A stretch of 64,000 nt of DNA from positions 1 through 64,000 of the forward strand of contig CAMWSK010000004.1 in the NCBI GenBank assembly GCA_947176895.1, in the 5' to 3' direction. Below are positions 8,945 to 63,202 of the stretch, in pieces; the stretch's first letter is position 1, and each line of letters starts with the position of its first letter. The position numbers and the translations under genes are program-made. Under the pieces are notes generated by a model. The model made no database searches. It saw nothing but the letters and a program-made list of their open reading frames with translations, and was not told the DNA's origin. Origin of the DNA: an uncultured Prevotellaceae bacterium (lineage in GTDB: Bacteria > Bacteroidota > Bacteroidia > Bacteroidales > Bacteroidaceae).

Positions 8945-9005
8945 AAAACGTGTTCATGTTTTTCAAAAACATGAACACGTTTTCATCAAAACATGAACAT
9001 GTTTT
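8945..9005. repeat. Dispersed palindromic repeat, copy 1
   Basis: Begins with a perfect inverted repeat: arms AAAACGTGTTCATGTTTTT at 8945-8963 and 8965-8983 around a single C, followed by one more degenerate unit ending AACATGTTTT. Related elements lie at 18793, 31332, 51154 and 58442, always between genes. No U-run follows, so it is not a simple terminator, although it could cap the 3' end of the GH2 transcript. Confidence 0.85.
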
Positions 9006-9091
9006 CCGGGGGAGATGCCGTGTGGGAGCCGTCCTTCACCGGATAGGCTCTTTTTGTGGCTGATTCTTTTGAAGATATGGCGGGGAATCGG

Positions 9092-18792: not shown

Positions 18793-18880
18793 AAAACATG
18801 AGGATGTTTTTCAAAAACATCCTCATGTTTTGCCTTATTCATCGCGATGTTTTTTCCCGTTCATCGCGATGTTTTTTCGG
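18793..18880. repeat. Dispersed palindromic repeat, copy 2
   Basis: A perfect inverted repeat with arms AAAACATGAGGATGTTTTT (18793-18811) and its complement (18813-18831) around one C, followed by two direct units of TTCATCGCGATGTTTTTTC separated by a few bases. The core letters differ from copy 1 but both arms changed together, so pairing is conserved. Confidence 0.85.
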
Positions 18881-22539: not shown

Positions 22540-22553
22540 GCGCAGGCATACAT

Positions 22554-22593
22554 AAAAAGAGCATGCTTCCCGCCCGGGAAGCATGCTCTTTTT
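22554..22593. terminator. Bidirectional terminator between luxR and the GH16 gene
   Basis: Perfect 18-bp arms AAAAAGAGCATGCTTCCC and complement with a 4-base loop; an A-run on one side and a T-run on the other allow function on both strands for the two convergent genes. Confidence 0.85.
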
Positions 22594-22610
22594 ATGATAG
22601 GAGGGAAGAC

Positions 22611-31184: not shown

Positions 31185-31221
31185 GCCGGGACACGGCAAG
31201 TTTCTTCCCGACACTCGCAAA

Positions 31222-31265
31222 CAAAGAGGCTGCGACGTAAACTTTATTACGTCGCAGCCTCTTTG
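31222..31265. terminator. Terminator after the SPFH gene
   Basis: Perfect 19-bp arms CAAAGAGGCTGCGACGTAA (31222-31240) and complement (31247-31265), loop ACTTTA. Confidence 0.8.
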
Positions 31266-31331
31266 TTTAACGTGAGTTCGATGAATTTACCTATGGATGA
31301 AGAGCCGGTAACGCAATGGCTTCTTTTTTTG

Positions 31332-31391
31332 AAAACATGAACATGTTTCAGGCAAAACATGAACACGTTTTCAAAAAACATGTTCATGTTT
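31332..31391. repeat. Dispersed palindromic repeat, copy 3
   Basis: Three units (AAAACATGAACATGTTTC, AAAACATGAACACGTTTTC, AAAAAACATGTTCATGTTT) in the gap between the convergent SPFH and nuclease genes. Confidence 0.8.
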
Positions 31392-51153: not shown

Positions 51154-51235
51154 ATGTTCATGTTTTTCCCGAAACATGAACACGTTTTTCAAAAACATGA
51201 GGATGTTCTTCCCGAAACATCCTCATGTTTTTTTC
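51154..51235. repeat. Dispersed palindromic repeat, copy 4
   Basis: Four units in sequence: ATGTTCATGTTTTTCCCG, AAACATGAACACGTTTTTC, AAAAACATGAGGATGTTC, AAACATCCTCATGTTTTT. Units 1/2 and 3/4 are mutual inverted pairs. Lies between the island promoter and obgE. Confidence 0.85.
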
Positions 51236-55607: not shown

Positions 55608-58334
55608 TCAGCTCAGCGAGCGGATGGTTTCCTGCAGAGCCTGTATCTTGCTCTCGGCATCGCTCTGTTTCTTGCGTTCGAGTTCCACCACCTGTGCGGG
55701 GGCGTTCTGCACGAATCGCTCGTTGGAGAGTTTCTTTTGGATGCCGGCGATGAAGCCTTGCAGGCGGTCGATTTCGGCCTGTGCCTTCTTGATTTCGGCT
55801 TCGGCATCGATCAGGTTGCCCAGGGGCACGGCATATTCCTCGGTGCCGACGAGGAAGGCCTGGCTGCCTTCACCCTTTTGGGCGACATATTCGATGGCGC
55901 TCAGTCCGGCAATCTTGCTTACCAGGTGGGCCATGGCGGGCTCGCGGGTGACGCGGGCTTCGCCGTCTGTGGCCACCACCTGCAGGGTGAGGGGCTCGCG
56001 CTGTGCGATGTTCTTCTGCTGGCGCAGGGCACGCACGCCACCAATCACGGCCTTGGCCCGGTTCATTTCCTTGATGAGTGTGGCATCTTCGGCGTGGGGA
56101 GCCTCCACGTTCATGCGGCTCGCCATGATGCTTTCGCCTTCGCCCCGGGGGCTGACGGCCTGGTAGATTTCCTCGGTGATGAAGGGCATGAAGGGATGGA
56201 TGACCTGCATCAGCGTCTCGAAGATTTCGAGCGTGGCGGTGAGCGTGGCGCGGTCCACGGGTTGCTGGTAGGCGGGCTTGATCATCTCCAGATACCAGCC
56301 GGAGAACTCGTCGGTGAAGAGCTTGAATGCGGTCATCAGCGCCTCGTTCAGGCGGTACTTGCCATAGAGGTCGTTGATTTCGGCCACGCCGGTGCGCAGC
56401 TGCGCCTGCATCCATGCGATGGCCTTTCGGTTGGCCTCGGGCTGTGCGAGCGTGTCGCTCACCTGCCATCCCTTCACCAGCCGGAAGGCGTTCCACATCT
56501 TGTTGCAGAAGGCGGCGCCCTGCTGGCAGAGGTCTTCCTTGAACAGGATGTCGTTGCCCGCAGGTGCGGCCAGCAACATGCCCATGCGCACGCCGTCGGC
56601 TCCGTATTTCTCAATCAGTTCGATGGGGTCGGGGCTGTTGCCCAGCGACTTGCTCATCTTGCGGCCTATCTCGTCGCGCACGATGCCGGTGAAGTAGACG
56701 CTGCGGAAGGGTACGTCGCCCATGTATTCCATGCCGGCCATGATCATGCGGGCCACCCAGAAGAAAATGATGTCGGGGCCGGTCACCAGCACCGAGGTGG
56801 GATAGTAGTACTTGATTTCCTCGTTGCCGGGCTGGTTGATGCCGTCGAACAGCGAGATGGGCCACAGCCACGAGCTGAACCACGTGTCCAGCGCATCCTC
56901 GTCGTGCTGTAGTTGGTCGATGGTGATGTTCTCGTATCCGGGTATCCGGCGGGCCTTCTCCAGCGCCTCTTCCTTGGTCAGGGCCACCACGAATTTTTCT
57001 TCTTCGTTGTCTTGCGTTGGCAGGAAGTAGGCGGGAATGCGGTGTCCCCACCACAGCTGGCGGCTGATGCACCAGTCCTGTATGCCCTCGAGCCAGTTGC
57101 GATAGGTGTTGACGTATTTGGCGGGGTAGAACTTGATTTTGCCTTCGAGCACGGGGGGCAGGGCGATGTCGGCCATGTGTTTCATCGAGAGGAACCACTG
57201 CTTGCAGAGGCGGGGCTCCACGGCGGTGTCCTGGTTGCGCTCGCTGTAGCCCACCTTGTTGGTGTAGTCCTCCACGCGCTCCATCAGTCCTGCGGCCTGC
57301 AGGTCCTTGGCTATCTGGGTGCGCACGTCCATGCGGTCGCGGCCCACGTAGAGGCCTGCGGCCTCGGCGATGGTGCCGTCGGGGTTGAAGATGTCGATGG
57401 TCTCCAGGTTATGCGTCTTGCCCAGGGCGTAGTCGTTCACATCGTGGGCGGGGGTCACCTTCAGGCAGCCCGTGCCGAACTCGATGTCCACGTAGCGGTC
57501 TTCGATGATGGGCACCACACGGTTCACCAGGGGCACAATCACCTTGCGGCCCTTCAGCCATTGGTTCTTGGGGTCCTTGGGGTTGATGCACACGGCGGTG
57601 TCGCCCATGATGGTCTCGGGGCGTGTGGTGGCCACCACGGCATAGTAGCGTCCGTTCTCGTCTTTATGCAGCACCTCGCCCTCCCGGCCCGTGGCCACCA
57701 CGGGGTTAGTGTCCTGGTCGGCCACGTAATAGCGCAGGTTGTAGAGGTGGCTCTTCTCCTCGCGATAGATTACCTCCTCTGTGCTGAGCACGGTCTGGGC
57801 CTTGGGGTCCCAGTTCACCATGCGCAGGCCGCGGTAGATGAGTCCTTTGTCATACAGGTCCACGAACACCTTCAACACGCTTTCGCTGCGCTTCTCGTCC
57901 ATGGTGAAGGCGGTGCGGTCCCAGTCGCAGCTGGCGCCCAGCCGGCGCAGCTGCTTCAGGATGATGCCTCCGTGCTCGTCGGTCCAGCGCCACGCATGCT
58001 CCAGGAACTGCTCGCGGGTGAGGTCGCGCTTCTTGATGCCCTGTGCGGCCAGCCGGTTCACCACCTTGGCCTCGGTGGCGATGGAGGCGTGGTCGGTGCC
58101 GGGCACCCACAGGGCGTTTTTGCCGTCGAGGCGTGCCTTGCGCACCAGGATGTCCTGGATGGTGTTGTTGAGCATGTGGCCCATGTGCAGCACACCCGTC
58201 ACGTTTGGGGGAGGTATGACGATGGTGTAGGGGTCGCGACTGTCGGGCCGGCTGCGGAAGAGTTGGTGGTCCAGCCAATATTGATACCATTTGCCCTCGA
58301 TGTCCTGAGGAGTGTATTTTGAGGCTAATTCCAT
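55608..58334 (-). CDS. valS: Valyl-tRNA synthetase
   Basis: 908 residues. Class I motifs: HIGH-type [14 protein letters not shown] near residue 45 and KMSKS in [10 protein letters not shown] near 560. The editing domain lies between them, and a C-terminal coiled coil ([18 protein letters not shown]) contacts tRNA. It charges tRNA-Val. The length is normal for the family. Confidence 0.96.
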
Positions 58335-58441: not shown

Positions 58442-58503
58442 GAAAACATGTTCATCTTTTTTGAAAACATGCTCATGTTTTCAAAAAACGTGTTCATGTT
58501 TTT
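58442..58503. repeat. Dispersed palindromic repeat, copy 5
   Basis: Three degenerate units (AAAACATGTTCATC, AAAACATGCTCATGTTTTC, AAAAAACGTGTTCATGTTTT) between valS and the surface lipoprotein gene. Confidence 0.75.
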
Positions 58504-58616: not shown

Positions 58617-61607
58617 TTACTTAATAGGTGTGGTTGTCAGCGTTACGGGAATGCGGCACTTGACAACTGACAGATCCTTGAAGGTAACGGTTGCGATAAC
58701 GTGCAGTTCGTAGGTGTCCTTAAGATCTGTACCACCGTTGTACCAAACAACCTGGCCGTCTGCATTAACCTCCAACTTGGCATCTTTTCCCATGTCGCTT
58801 GTCAATTTCTTGTAAGCTTCTTCCGTTGTGTCGAAAGCGAAGGTAACGTCCTTGGCACTAGGAGCAGCGACTTTGTAGCTGTTCGTTGCCTTTGTTGACA
58901 GTTCCAGTTGCTTGGTCTTGGCATTCCAGCTGTAGATCTTGTCACCTTCGTTGTCAACAACAAGTACCTCAGGTTTCGTTTCACCGGTGTTTTTATCTGG
59001 ACCGTTGGCGTAGATGCTGATGCCCTTGGCGCTTCCGGCCTTGAACGGATTGACGAATACAATGTTGTAGTTGAAGTTACAGGTCTCATTGTTCACCAAA
59101 GTCGTTGTGTAGGTCATGTTGTGAACCTCCTTGTCCGTTGTCATGGCGTGTGACAGGGCAACCTCGAATGCGCTGGTTTGGTCGCCAGTGGGAGTTACAC
59201 CGGTCTCACCGGTCTTCCATGCGAACTTGATGGCCTTCACATTGGGCTTCTGCTTGTAGTAGTCGAAGATGTTCTTGCCATTAACCATCTTGAAGTGCTC
59301 GGCAACCTTAGAAGACATTACCCAGTTGCCGGAATCGTCCAACTGACCCTTGACTACAACGCAGTCGCTGTACTGCTTGCCGTTCACCTCATAGGTGGCG
59401 TAGTGGTACAAGGGGTTGTACTCGAACGTGCTGCACACTTCCTTCACGTAGAAGTCCTGAGTCAGAACGTAGTTTTTGTAGCTGTAGTTGTTGTCGGCCT
59501 TGATCTTGATGGTCACCTGATAGTGTGCACCCTTGCCGTCCACATCCTTATAGGTGTTCTGCGTCTTGACATTGTTGTCGACCATCAGCTTGACATAAGC
59601 GGTGGTGGTGGCAGTGCTGTTCAGGTTAATCTCGGTCTTGACACCCTCGGCCTGCAGGGTCTGTACCTGGTTGGCGCTCAGGTTCTCCTGCTTGATGGTC
59701 TTCCAAGTGTCGTTTTTCTGCATAACCTTAACCTCTACCTCGTAGGTATCGTTGCTTCCACCGAAGTGGTTCCAGAAGGTGGTTGAGGTGAGACCGGCGT
59801 GGCCATAGAGTTCCTTGTTGATGCGCTCCCAGCTCATGTCGCTTACCATCGTGCCTGCAGCGGATACGTTCTTGTATTCGAGTTCCTTTGCACCAGTAAT
59901 ATTCACAATCTGGTCTCCCAGCGGTGTCTGAGACGAGGCCTTCTTCACAATCTGCAGCTTGATGTAAGATGTGGCAACCAAGTGCTGTGTGCCATCGTTG
60001 TCGGCGAGGAAAGCATCCACGCGCACAACGGGAGTACGGCCGATGGCAGATGTGCCGTAGGACTCTTCAATCTTTACAATACCACTTTCGTCCAATTTCA
60101 CGAATTTCTGTTGGTCGGTCTTCTTGTCATCGTTTGCCAGATATTCCTTGGGCAAAGAGAACTTATAGCTCATGCCAACGAAGTTCTCCTTGGCGATGTA
60201 CTTCTGGAGATTGTTGGAGTACAGGCCCACAACCTTGTTCAGGTCAAAGGATTCCGTATATGCGAACTGATGGTTGGGAGCGGCGTCCAAAGCAACAAAC
60301 TGCTTTACGAAGTCGCTGGTCTCCTCGCTGCCCTGAATCTTCTTGGTACGGTTGTAGTACAAGTGGCCGTTGGTACGTGTACCGTCAGTGTTCAATGCAC
60401 TTACTGCACTGGCGGTAACGCCGCTCAGGGTTTTATGGGTCAGAGAGTCAACGAGGCAAACGTTGATGCCCGTGGACTTGATGTGCACGTTGTCGGAGGT
60501 CACACCGTTCTGGCCCTGCCAAGCCTGCAAAGCAGCGATGTCGTGGTTGCTGCTGCTCAGCTTGTTCTTGTCCAGTGTAGCCTTAACGGTCACCTCACCC
60601 TTGGCGATGGCGGGCTCGCCCACAACGCTCAGCAGATTCTGCTTGTCGCCGGCTGCGCGAGTGGTGACGGCACGGTTGACAAAGCCGAAGGTCATGCCCT
60701 CGGTGTAGGTCTCTGAGGGGTTCAGACGGTAGATCAGGTCAACGATGTTAGACTTCTTGAAAGAATTTTGTGCGATGAACTCCTTTGTCTGCTGATTGAA
60801 CTTCGTCTCGTCCAGGTAGCTGTTCACATGATAGAAAGGCTTGGAGGTCGTGGCATAAGGAACTTCGTTGCTGACCACCGTGGGCACGAACACAAGTGAA
60901 CCCAGTTCTGCGCCCAAGGTCAGAGTCTTCGTGACGGTTTGTCCCTTTTCGTCCTTGATGCCGCTGAAGGTCAGTTTGTTGCCTTCGAGGATGGCAGTCA
61001 CGCCGGTTCCGCGCCAAGCGATTTCGGTGGTGCCAACCTTCTTGCCATCCTGCCAGATGTCGAAGTTGCCGGTCTCGGTGTTGGGAACATAGTACTTACC
61101 GTTTTCTCCGTCTTCACCGGGCTTTCCATCGGCACCGGGCTTTCCATCGGCACCGGGCTTTCCATCGGCACCGGGTTTTCCATCGGCACCGGGCTTTCCA
61201 TCAGCACCGGGTTTGCCGTCCTGTCCGTCCTTGCCGTCGGCACCATCTTTGCCGTCAAGGCCGATGGCCTTGTACTCGGTCTTCACGCCATTGCAAATCC
61301 AGAAGCCGTCTTCGCTGATTTCCCAGGTCGTTCCATCGGCACCGGCAGCACCCTTCTCGCCGTTGCTGATCTTGAACTCTCTGTCGTCGCTGAGCTTGAC
61401 AACCACACCGTCTTCGACGGAAGTCACGCTGGAGATTACAGCTCCCGCTTTAATCTGGCTGTCCAACTCCGACAAAGAAGCCTTGACCGCCTCTACCTGA
61501 GAGCGCAAGTCCGCAATGTCATCATCGTAATCAGCACAACTTGTATAGGCAAGGGAGCCCATAGCCAATGTGCCGAAAAACATTACTTTGATAAAATTCT
61601 TTCTCAT
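58617..61607 (-). CDS. Surface lipoprotein with PL29/DUF4988-type N-terminus and collagen-like repeats
   Basis: 996 residues. Lipoprotein signal ends GSLAYTSC (Cys 24). A coiled coil (DIADLRSQVEAVKASLSELD) leads into a DUF4988/PL29 N-terminal-type domain, interrupted by six or seven collagen-like GKPGAD units (about residues 130-170). Some 800 residues of Ig-like or beta-sandwich sequence follow, with no catalytic motif visible. Lipid anchor, stalk and repeats indicate a surface-exposed adhesin or binding protein (inference). ATG 61607 is set by the signal peptide. Upstream lies an invertible-looking segment whose promoter now points away from this gene. Confidence 0.8.
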   Translation of the reverse strand: MRKNFIKVMFFGTLAMGSLAYTSCADYDDDIADLRSQVEAVKASLSELDSQIKAGAVISSVTSVEDGVVVKLSDDREFKISNGEKGAAGADGTTWEISEDGFWICNGVKTEYKAIGLDGKDGADGKDGQDGKPGADGKPGADGKPGADGKPGADGKPGADGKPGEDGENGKYYVPNTETGNFDIWQDGKKVGTTEIAWRGTGVTAILEGNKLTFSGIKDEKGQTVTKTLTLGAELGSLVFVPTVVSNEVPYATTSKPFYHVNSYLDETKFNQQTKEFIAQNSFKKSNIVDLIYRLNPSETYTEGMTFGFVNRAVTTRAAGDKQNLLSVVGEPAIAKGEVTVKATLDKNKLSSSNHDIAALQAWQGQNGVTSDNVHIKSTGINVCLVDSLTHKTLSGVTASAVSALNTDGTRTNGHLYYNRTKKIQGSEETSDFVKQFVALDAAPNHQFAYTESFDLNKVVGLYSNNLQKYIAKENFVGMSYKFSLPKEYLANDDKKTDQQKFVKLDESGIVKIEESYGTSAIGRTPVVRVDAFLADNDGTQHLVATSYIKLQIVKKASSQTPLGDQIVNITGAKELEYKNVSAAGTMVSDMSWERINKELYGHAGLTSTTFWNHFGGSNDTYEVEVKVMQKNDTWKTIKQENLSANQVQTLQAEGVKTEINLNSTATTTAYVKLMVDNNVKTQNTYKDVDGKGAHYQVTIKIKADNNYSYKNYVLTQDFYVKEVCSTFEYNPLYHYATYEVNGKQYSDCVVVKGQLDDSGNWVMSSKVAEHFKMVNGKNIFDYYKQKPNVKAIKFAWKTGETGVTPTGDQTSAFEVALSHAMTTDKEVHNMTYTTTLVNNETCNFNYNIVFVNPFKAGSAKGISIYANGPDKNTGETKPEVLVVDNEGDKIYSWNAKTKQLELSTKATNSYKVAAPSAKDVTFAFDTTEEAYKKLTSDMGKDAKLEVNADGQVVWYNGGTDLKDTYELHVIATVTFKDLSVVKCRIPVTLTTTPIK
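61105..61215 (-). repeat. 18-bp tandem repeats encoding collagen-like GKPGAD
   Basis: About six near-identical copies of an 18-bp unit (plus-strand GGCTTTCCATCGGCACCG) in frame. Whole-unit gain or loss would change stalk length without a frameshift. Confidence 0.85.
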
Positions 61608-61679
61608 AAATAATGAATTAGTTAATAATATATATATTAATAAACACGTTTCGTTTTTTACTTTTCCCCCACACGGCAC

Positions 61680-61696
61680 ATTACTTCGTAGGTAAT
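61680..61696. repeat. Left inverted repeat of a putative invertible promoter
   Basis: ATTACTTCGTAGGTAAT, the exact reverse complement of the repeats at 62020 and 62039. Its arms ATTAC/GTAAT flank a 7-bp spacer, the form of a tyrosine-recombinase core site. Confidence 0.85.
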
Positions 61697-61992
61697 AAGG
61701 AAAACGTGTTTAAAAGGCGGCCATAAGGCCGTACATCCCGGATATACACAAGAGAACAGGCCGGGAACAAAGATAAACGCTGCGCCGGACGGGAATGACA
61801 GCCGTGTCGGGGCGTGGGAAGACAGACCTGAGGGACAAACACTCCTGCAGGTCTCGTTTTGTCATGTGTGAATACGTGGTCCGATACGTTAAAAACGGTG
61901 TGACTTTGCTTTAATTCACGCAAAAGAAGGTTTTTTTGCACGAAAAACGAAAATATATCTTGATAAACTTGCGTTATTCAAAACAAAAATCG

Positions 61993-62000
61993 TACCTTTG
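61993..62000 (+). promoter_or_regulatory. Promoter inside the putative invertible segment
   Basis: TACCTTTG with TTG at 61969-61971, 21 bp upstream. It points right, away from the lipoprotein gene; inversion would direct it to ATG 61607. Confidence 0.65.
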
Positions 62001-62019
62001 CACAAAGAAATGCACGACT

Positions 62020-62036
62020 ATTACCTACGAAGTAAT
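62020..62036. repeat. Right inverted repeat 1
   Basis: ATTACCTACGAAGTAAT, the exact reverse complement of the copy at 61680. Confidence 0.85.
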
Positions 62037-62038
62037 CT

Positions 62039-62055
62039 ATTACCTACGAAGTAAT
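62039..62055. repeat. Right inverted repeat 2
   Basis: Second identical copy of ATTACCTACGAAGTAAT, separated from the first by CT. The direct duplication gives the recombinase two alternative right ends. Confidence 0.85.
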
Positions 62056-62074
62056 GGTCGTTTTTTTTATCTTG

Positions 62075-63001
62075 TCACGTAGTTTTTCCCGTTCCTTTAT
62101 TACAGGCCTCCACCACTCTCAGGACCATCAGGTTGGCGGCGTTGACGCGCACCTGCATAAAGGGCTTCAGATAGTGTTCCGTCACCAATATCGAGGAGTG
62201 GCCCAAGGCCTGCGAGATGATTCCCGGATGCACATCGTTGTGATAGGCCGTCGTGGCCCAGCTGTGGCGGATGGTGTAGGTGCTCAGGTGGGCAAGGCCA
62301 AGCCGCTTGGCCAGTTTGGCCAGCCGGCCGTTGAACGTGTTGATGGCGTTGCGGTAGAGGTGGTAGTAGCTGCGGGCATCGTCCCCTCTGTCGAGGAAGG
62401 GGAAGAGCCACGGCGAGGAGGCGTCCTTGCTGCGCAGCCGGTTCACCAAAGCGAGGATGGAGGGGCTCAGCTCCACCACCATGGACGTGCCCGTCTTGTG
62501 GCGGCGATAACAGAGCGTGTTGCTCTGCAGGTCGCACTTGCGCAGATAGACCAGGTCGGCAAAGGGGATGCCCCGCATGGCGAACATCAGTTTGCAGTAG
62601 TCGCGCGTCCGGCTCTGTTGGCGTGAAGGAATCTTGGCGTGGAACAGGCGCGACAGGTCCTCGGGTCCGAGTGCCCGGCGGCGGTCGCTGCGCGTTCCGG
62701 TGTAGACGCCCACAAACAGTCGGTGGCTGTAGGGCGCGACCCCGGCATCCACCGCCCGGTTATACACGGCCCGCAGCACCCGCATATAGGTGGACACGGT
62801 GTTCCACTGCCGGTTGCCGCTGACCAGGTAAAACTCGAAGGCGCTCAGCACGCGCCGGTTCAATTGCTCCATGCGGAAGCGCTTGTGCCCGACGAACGAT
62901 TCGAAAGCCCGCATGGTGCTGCCGTGGACCCGGGCGGTGCCGAAGCGCCCCTCTTCCTCAAGGGAGCGGATGACGCGGCACATGAAATGACTTAACAGCA
63001 T
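62075..63001 (-). CDS. Tyrosine site-specific recombinase (phase-variation type)
   Basis: 308 residues from ATG 63001. An N-terminal SAM-like core-binding domain (SLEEEGRFGTARVHGSTMRA) precedes the catalytic domain with Arg (MFAMRGIPFADLVYL), Lys (RRHKTGTSMV), the box-II TIRHSWATT, His (ALGHSS) and the nucleophile Tyr (EHYLKP). The first His of the usual HxxR is replaced by Tyr/Thr, which is common in Bacteroidales invertases. It lies next to paired 17-bp inverted repeats, so it is the likely invertase. Its 3' end faces the promoter in the current orientation, which would give antisense RNA. Alternative starts are 63055 and 62983. Confidence 0.85.
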   Translation of the reverse strand: MLLSHFMCRVIRSLEEEGRFGTARVHGSTMRAFESFVGHKRFRMEQLNRRVLSAFEFYLVSGNRQWNTVSTYMRVLRAVYNRAVDAGVAPYSHRLFVGVYTGTRSDRRRALGPEDLSRLFHAKIPSRQQSRTRDYCKLMFAMRGIPFADLVYLRKCDLQSNTLCYRRHKTGTSMVVELSPSILALVNRLRSKDASSPWLFPFLDRGDDARSYYHLYRNAINTFNGRLAKLAKRLGLAHLSTYTIRHSWATTAYHNDVHPGIISQALGHSSILVTEHYLKPFMQVRVNAANLMVLRVVEACNKGTGKTT

Positions 63002-63202
63002 ATTCTGATACGTTATTATAAGGTGAAAATTCCGGCAAATACGGGTGTATGCCACAAACCTGTATTTCCTTTCTCAAATATCGGATGTTTTGCCTGAACC
63101 TGCAAGTTATTCGGGCAAAGTTTTGTGCCTTGCCGCTCTTGTCCGACCGTTGAAGCAGCGTAAAAACCTGCCGGGATATTTGGATTACTTGCCGGAACGC
63201 CC

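Follow-up and report, generated by a model that had tools for sequence, protein, structure and literature searches.

Between valS and mazG, the stretch of DNA analyzed here (64,000 nucleotides, referred to as the window) contains a gene for a collagen-repeat lipoprotein, a short segment bounded by inverted repeats, and a tyrosine recombinase gene. This arrangement raises the question of whether the lipoprotein gene is turned on and off by inversion of a promoter, and in which state it was captured. A promoter inverton in the OFF orientation was proposed in the preliminary description of the locus, and at the sequence level this proposal is supported by the layout, the sites, the enzyme, and the arrangement and apparent flips in relatives. 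In our judgment, the locus is very probably a self-contained phase-variation module, namely a promoter inverton in its OFF state. The switch is of a known kind; its peculiarities are that the right site is duplicated and that a hairpin followed by a T-run is formed in the OFF orientation alone.

Sites, promoter motif and recombinase

From left to right, the locus is composed of valS, the lipoprotein gene, the left site, the 323-bp segment, the two right sites R1 and R2, the recombinase gene and mazG. Its features are as follows (window coordinates).

55608-58334, minus strand: valS
58617..61607, minus strand: target lipoprotein-like gene (996 aa, DUF4988 and collagen repeats), with its start codon ATG 61607 facing the segment
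61641..61712, minus strand: imperfect, weak hairpin around the left site, one arm in the segment and one outside
61680-61696, minus strand: putative left recombination site, 17 bp
61697..62019: putative invertible segment (323 bp with R1 as the right-hand site)
61775-61768, minus strand: lone -7-like box TATCTTTG without a -33 TTG, pointing left
61969..62001, plus strand: Bacteroidales-type promoter motif (TTG 61969-61971 ... TACCTTTGC 61993-62001), pointing right, away from the lipoprotein gene
62014..62068, plus strand: terminator-like hairpin and T-run around R1-R2, 11-bp stem with one G-T pair, existing in the present orientation only
62020-62036, plus strand: inner right site R1, 17 bp
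62039-62055, plus strand: outer right site R2, a tandem copy of R1
62075..63055, minus strand: tyrosine recombinase (PF13102 and PF00589), likely start ATG 63001 (308 aa)
from 63236 or 63257, plus strand: mazG

All three sites are letter-identical (ATTAC-CTACGAA-GTAAT), with one inverted and two in tandem, and each is a palindrome of 5-bp arms around a 7-bp spacer that is the same in the left and right sites. As an inverted repeat, the left site matches the outer right site over 19 bp (61679-61697 / 62038-62056) and the inner one over 18 bp. With up to three mismatches, the 17-mer occurs three times in the 64-kb window against 0.02 expected, a count reached in 0 of 100 shuffles; with up to two mismatches, it occurs three times in the 2.42-Mb genome to which the window belongs (an assembly of 53 contigs, 88% complete), all at this locus. 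A search of the same genome for further targets with the core TTACCTANNNAGTAA at up to one mismatch returned five matches, consisting of the three known sites and two one-mismatch sequences, compared with eight for the backwards control. These measurements bear out the preliminary description in its account of exact 17-bp inverted repeats around about 325 bp (323 bp as measured, with the repeats extending to 18-19 bp), of a right site duplicated as exact tandem copies, of sites in recombinase-core form, and of a recombinase 3' end 20 bp from the right repeat (19 bases between the outer site and the stop codon). The tandem R1-R2 could be an assembly error.

The TTG ... TACCTTTGC motif is the sole full promoter match in the segment, so that a promoter, as a motif, lies inside the segment as in Bacteroidales invertons. 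Of 2000 random sequences that kept the dinucleotide composition of the segment, 52 (2.6%) contained a full match on either strand, and the motif alone is therefore modest evidence. The OFF call is supported by the promoter consensus together with the usual promoter position in relatives, both of which suggest that the promoter now points the wrong way. Because the lone -7-like box at 61775 points left, the OFF state may leak. The single right-pointing consensus promoter described earlier was recovered, with this box besides.

We propose that inversion of the promoter-bearing segment is catalyzed by the tyrosine recombinase, which would pair the left site with either R1 or R2. In the present orientation, the promoter would fire to the right, away from the lipoprotein gene and into the hairpin with its T-run (OFF); after inversion, it would fire to the left and the surface lipoprotein would be expressed. 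The ON leader would be about 100 nt with one site if R1 is used, which is the length given in the preliminary description, or about 120 nt with two sites if R2 is used. Four elements of this scheme we infer: the use of these sites by the enzyme, the flipping of the segment, the activity of the promoter, and termination at the hairpin.

The recombinase, read from ATG 63001, carries R143, K169, R245, H268 and Y277 at the positions expected of a tyrosine recombinase, which we take to be the catalytic positions; they are kept in 54, 75, 75, 75 and 73 of 79 aligned rows, respectively. The histidine of its HxxR motif is replaced by tyrosine, likewise in 72 of the 79 rows. A PDB sequence search with the recombinase returned one XerC-like chain, and neither the recombinase nor the lipoprotein reached the cut-off of any NCBIfam model. 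The locus has the adjacent tyrosine recombinase with catalytic residues that is expected of a Bacteroidales GTTAC-N7-GTAAC promoter inverton. A Mpi-type serine invertase switch was also considered and ruled out, because the domains of the enzyme are those of a phage integrase (tyrosine) and not of a serine recombinase. For the lipoprotein, no homologs of residues 245-996 were found in 138 other genomes of the genus (E up to 1e-5), the PDB sequence search matched the collagen-like stretch to one fibril chain, and the structure model was unusable (mean pLDDT 34.5).

The same features bear on whether the switch still works. A relic or locked inverton, which once flipped but no longer does so and leaves the gene silent or read from another promoter, might be suspected from the changed outer arm base, the duplicated site and the left-pointing -7-like box in the present orientation; against this, no letter differs between left and right sites over 18-19 bp, the change struck both ATTAC arms alike and so preserved the palindrome, and the recombinase has an open frame that retains the catalytic residues. 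We consider a relic improbable.

Relatives of the recombinase and the site class

Searching 139 genomes of the genus (E up to 1e-20), we found relatives of the recombinase at 61 places besides the window, and 49 genomes, including that of the window, had a match. We compared 60 loci with wide flanks, plus L032 as a 61st that was wrongly oriented in the repeat count. The relatives carry the same enzyme-repeat arrangement far above background. We counted exact inverted repeats of 16 bp or longer with a gap of 100-450 bp, wherever at least 330 bp of flank was available. Of 54 relatives, 19 have one 3' of the recombinase and the other 35 have none of that length there; 5' of the recombinase, the count is 3 of 60. 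None of 613 windows elsewhere in the relatives' loci has such a repeat, and of the mazG control loci, 1/29 has one on one side and 0/29 on the other. In 22 loci with hand-picked repeat pairs, among them one of 13 bp and two of 14 bp, the -7 boxes near the repeats point right only (OFF) in 15, left only (ON) in 5, and both ways in 2. The genome of the window itself has a second recombinase of the same family (L140, G000:C19) with an 18-bp inverted repeat pair and a 163-bp gap on its 3' side, whose promoter points at a 194-aa secreted-looking protein, i.e., the ON orientation.

Two pairs of genomes look naturally flipped when their sequences are compared, although the site class in both cases is other than that of the window. 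In G123 and G172, the flanks are collinear (127/143 and 126/150 aligned bases identical), and the segments match only with one of them inverted (score 28.5, versus 10.0 directly and 9.5 for the best of 100 shuffles). These loci (L127 and L129, respectively) place an inverton in opposite orientations in two species, before a protein of at least 1139 aa with a start that is helicase-like by eye. In G019 and G178, two DUF4988-type lipoprotein genes flank a 2.8-kb block that is 96% identical and carries recombinase and promoter, and the right gene of G019 corresponds to the left gene of G178 (51% over 1148 aligned positions). Between the remaining outer genes, similarity is confined to the region near the N-terminus, which makes the case one-sided and gene replacement possible. 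At these loci (L136 and L135, respectively), the lipoprotein genes are divergent with near-identical signal peptides, apparently an either/or surface-lipoprotein switch. This two-gene switch resembles that of the window in its recombinase (37% identical), in a promoter beside a DUF4988 lipoprotein, and in the left protein of G019, which is 40% identical to the window lipoprotein over 253 aligned N-terminal positions. It differs in being an either/or switch, and in that its sites, of another class, flank a 2.2-kb segment containing the recombinase.

Among named relatives, those closest to the enzyme come from a plasmid record of Bacteroides (45.7%) and from a phage contig (44.0%). The promoter type and the named hosts in which relatives of the enzyme occur suggest that the window comes from a Bacteroidales, a gut-type bacterium. 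Plasmid and phage searches gave 83 matching records, of which 18 loci were examined, with site-class labels set by eye. An exact TTAC/CTAC-N7-GTAA/GTAG repeat pair is present at eight loci (L179-L182, L184, L187, L188, and L195) and a single such site at three (L185, L186, and L193). Near copies of the site in the window are found at L178 and L183 (ATTACCTGCGAAATAAC and ATTACCTATGAAGTAAC, respectively), and L189-L192 and L194 have other repeats. In a tree of 70 of the 80 recombinases, the 12 rows of this class, including the window, fall together with L178 into one clade of 13 (support 100/97), and the site-class labels of the 41 labelled rows require 5 changes versus at least 12 in 200 shuffles. 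The window enzyme thus falls among recombinases that share its site class, and the clade suggests that recombinase sequence can predict site class. Exact-site scans of genome contigs (16 stretches) and viral contigs (4) returned single sites, mostly in unlike hosts and chance-like, and were set aside.

As the labelled repeats of the genus relatives are mostly of the TCTT..AAGA kind, the recombinase in the window looks acquired, judging from these comparisons. We examined 29 mazG loci, out of 124 other genomes that have the gene. In 13 of them, including that of G023, the genome with the most similar MazG, valS is the divergent neighbor of mazG at a distance of 116-208 bp; in a 14th (L107), 1047 bp separate the two. 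None of the 29 has a recombinase or lipoprotein match within the stored flanks. Since valS and mazG adjoin in 13 of 29, the place of the module between them fits acquisition. That adjacency, and the plasmid and phage records of the nearest enzymes, would also suit a mobile-element integrase with its attachment sites, in which an element brought the lipoprotein gene between valS and mazG and the repeats serve integration rather than switching; yet the sites are inverted and internal with no copy at the outer ends of the module, and are therefore unable to excise it. Direct site repeats at the outer ends, as in an integrative element, were not found, the site being present genome-wide at three inner places only, and in the named relatives the same enzyme-repeat pair precedes resident operons, e.g., capsule genes. 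We regard such an element as extremely improbable.

Hairpins and the duplicated right site

In the promoter inverton that we favor, the sites may also shape the transcripts. The 62014-62068 hairpin arises where ACGACT in the segment and GGTCGT in the flank extend the site palindrome, and folds at -14 kcal/mol (z -3.56). A comparable arm and T-run was found in 1 of 20000 random flanks, by a criterion fixed after the hairpin was seen. By eye, none of 13 other loci of the class has such a T-run after the site. A standard terminator scan returned no sites, its loop limit of 8 excluding a two-site hairpin. The hairpin around the left site is weak (z -2.0; 8/200 shuffles fold as well). The OFF-specific terminator hairpin is best taken as an interesting suggestion rather than a result.

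According to in-silico folds, the tandem right site allows two inversions, leaving one site (R1) or two sites (R2) between promoter and gene. The P. distasonis locus L188 has multiple sites as well, and so do L130, L142 and L143 in the genus. It is conceivable, though we think it rather unlikely, that the locus is a three-state switch, with an OFF state that has its own site-built terminator and an ON state reached via R1 or R2 that gives high or low expression through one versus two leader hairpins. In such a switch, the OFF transcript would end in the hairpin, with the inner arm provided by the segment and the outer arm and T-run by the flank, and the hairpin would shield the convergent recombinase gene from antisense transcription. 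Inversion would take the inner arm away and dismantle the terminator, and the use of R1 versus R2 would put one versus two site hairpins in the ON leader, for high versus low expression. With its duplicated site, the locus lends itself to a simple check on whether expression level depends on the number of sites.

That the repeats are terminators or operator palindromes unrelated to recombination is hardly credible. In its favor, a terminator-like hairpin can form from the right sites; against it, the sites agree exactly over 18-19 bp despite lying 340 bp apart, share an identical asymmetric spacer, and adjoin a recombinase whose clade predicts site class.

Elsewhere in the window, perfect 22-bp inverted repeats at 22551-22596 and 31219-31268 (loops of 2 nt and 6 nt, respectively) are possible terminators. 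An interspersed palindromic repeat around AAACATGAACACGTTT occurs at 8945-9006, 18793-18875, 31325-31382, 51162-51232 and 58442-58503; with up to one mismatch, it has 215 matches in the same genome (backwards control 0) and 0 in 12 same-genus genomes searched. A Y1_Tnp (REP-associated type) transposase was not found in this 88%-complete genome, and the family appears to be lineage-specific and REP-like, with no evident enzyme.

Comparison with known systems

Layout, site form, promoter, enzyme and target all agree with Bacteroidales promoter invertons. The closest counterparts are the GTTAC-N7-GTAAC invertons, for which excerpts of PMC12118408 describe a GTTACTTCTTAGGTAACGGA repeat in B. xylanisolvens with one high-confidence long-read inversion, a GCTACTYRGNRAGTAGC repeat in P. 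distasonis, and CCGTTACCTABVRAGTAAC before the S-layer gene and other loci of B. thetaiotaomicron. In these excerpts, the published systems share with the window a palindromic site with 5-bp arms and a 7-bp spacer, a neighboring integrase or tyrosine invertase, a promoter segment of about 290-345 bp, and a surface target, and the window spacer CTACGAA fits the B. thetaiotaomicron consensus CTABVRA. The sole arm difference is the outermost pair, A/T in the window versus G/C in the published class, with both sides changed together. The targets also differ, being capsule genes or an S-layer protein in the systems described there and a collagen-repeat DUF4988 lipoprotein here.

The Tsr19/BF2766 system of B. 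fragilis, in the portion of PMC4747536 consulted, likewise has a tyrosine recombinase next to a local invertible promoter. Unlike the recombinase in the window, for which no further site was found in its genome, Tsr19 has an additional, distant site of action and governs polysaccharide genes. According to the same source, transcription in B. fragilis is lower where more repeats separate the promoter from the gene. Invertases beside invertons are mostly not driven by them, according to extracts of PMC8748976 and PMC11892184, and in rich medium about one cell in 1000 expresses BT1927, a phase-variable S-layer lipoprotein, according to an extract of PMC12548429.

Among the literature matches listed on phase-variable Bacteroid lipoproteins, a collagen-like target of an invertible promoter was not found, and our view, formed from that one literature search, is that a collagen-repeat target is so far unreported. 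To a well-studied class of switch, the locus adds an unusual target, the collagen-repeat DUF4988 lipoprotein, and a clear link from enzyme to site.
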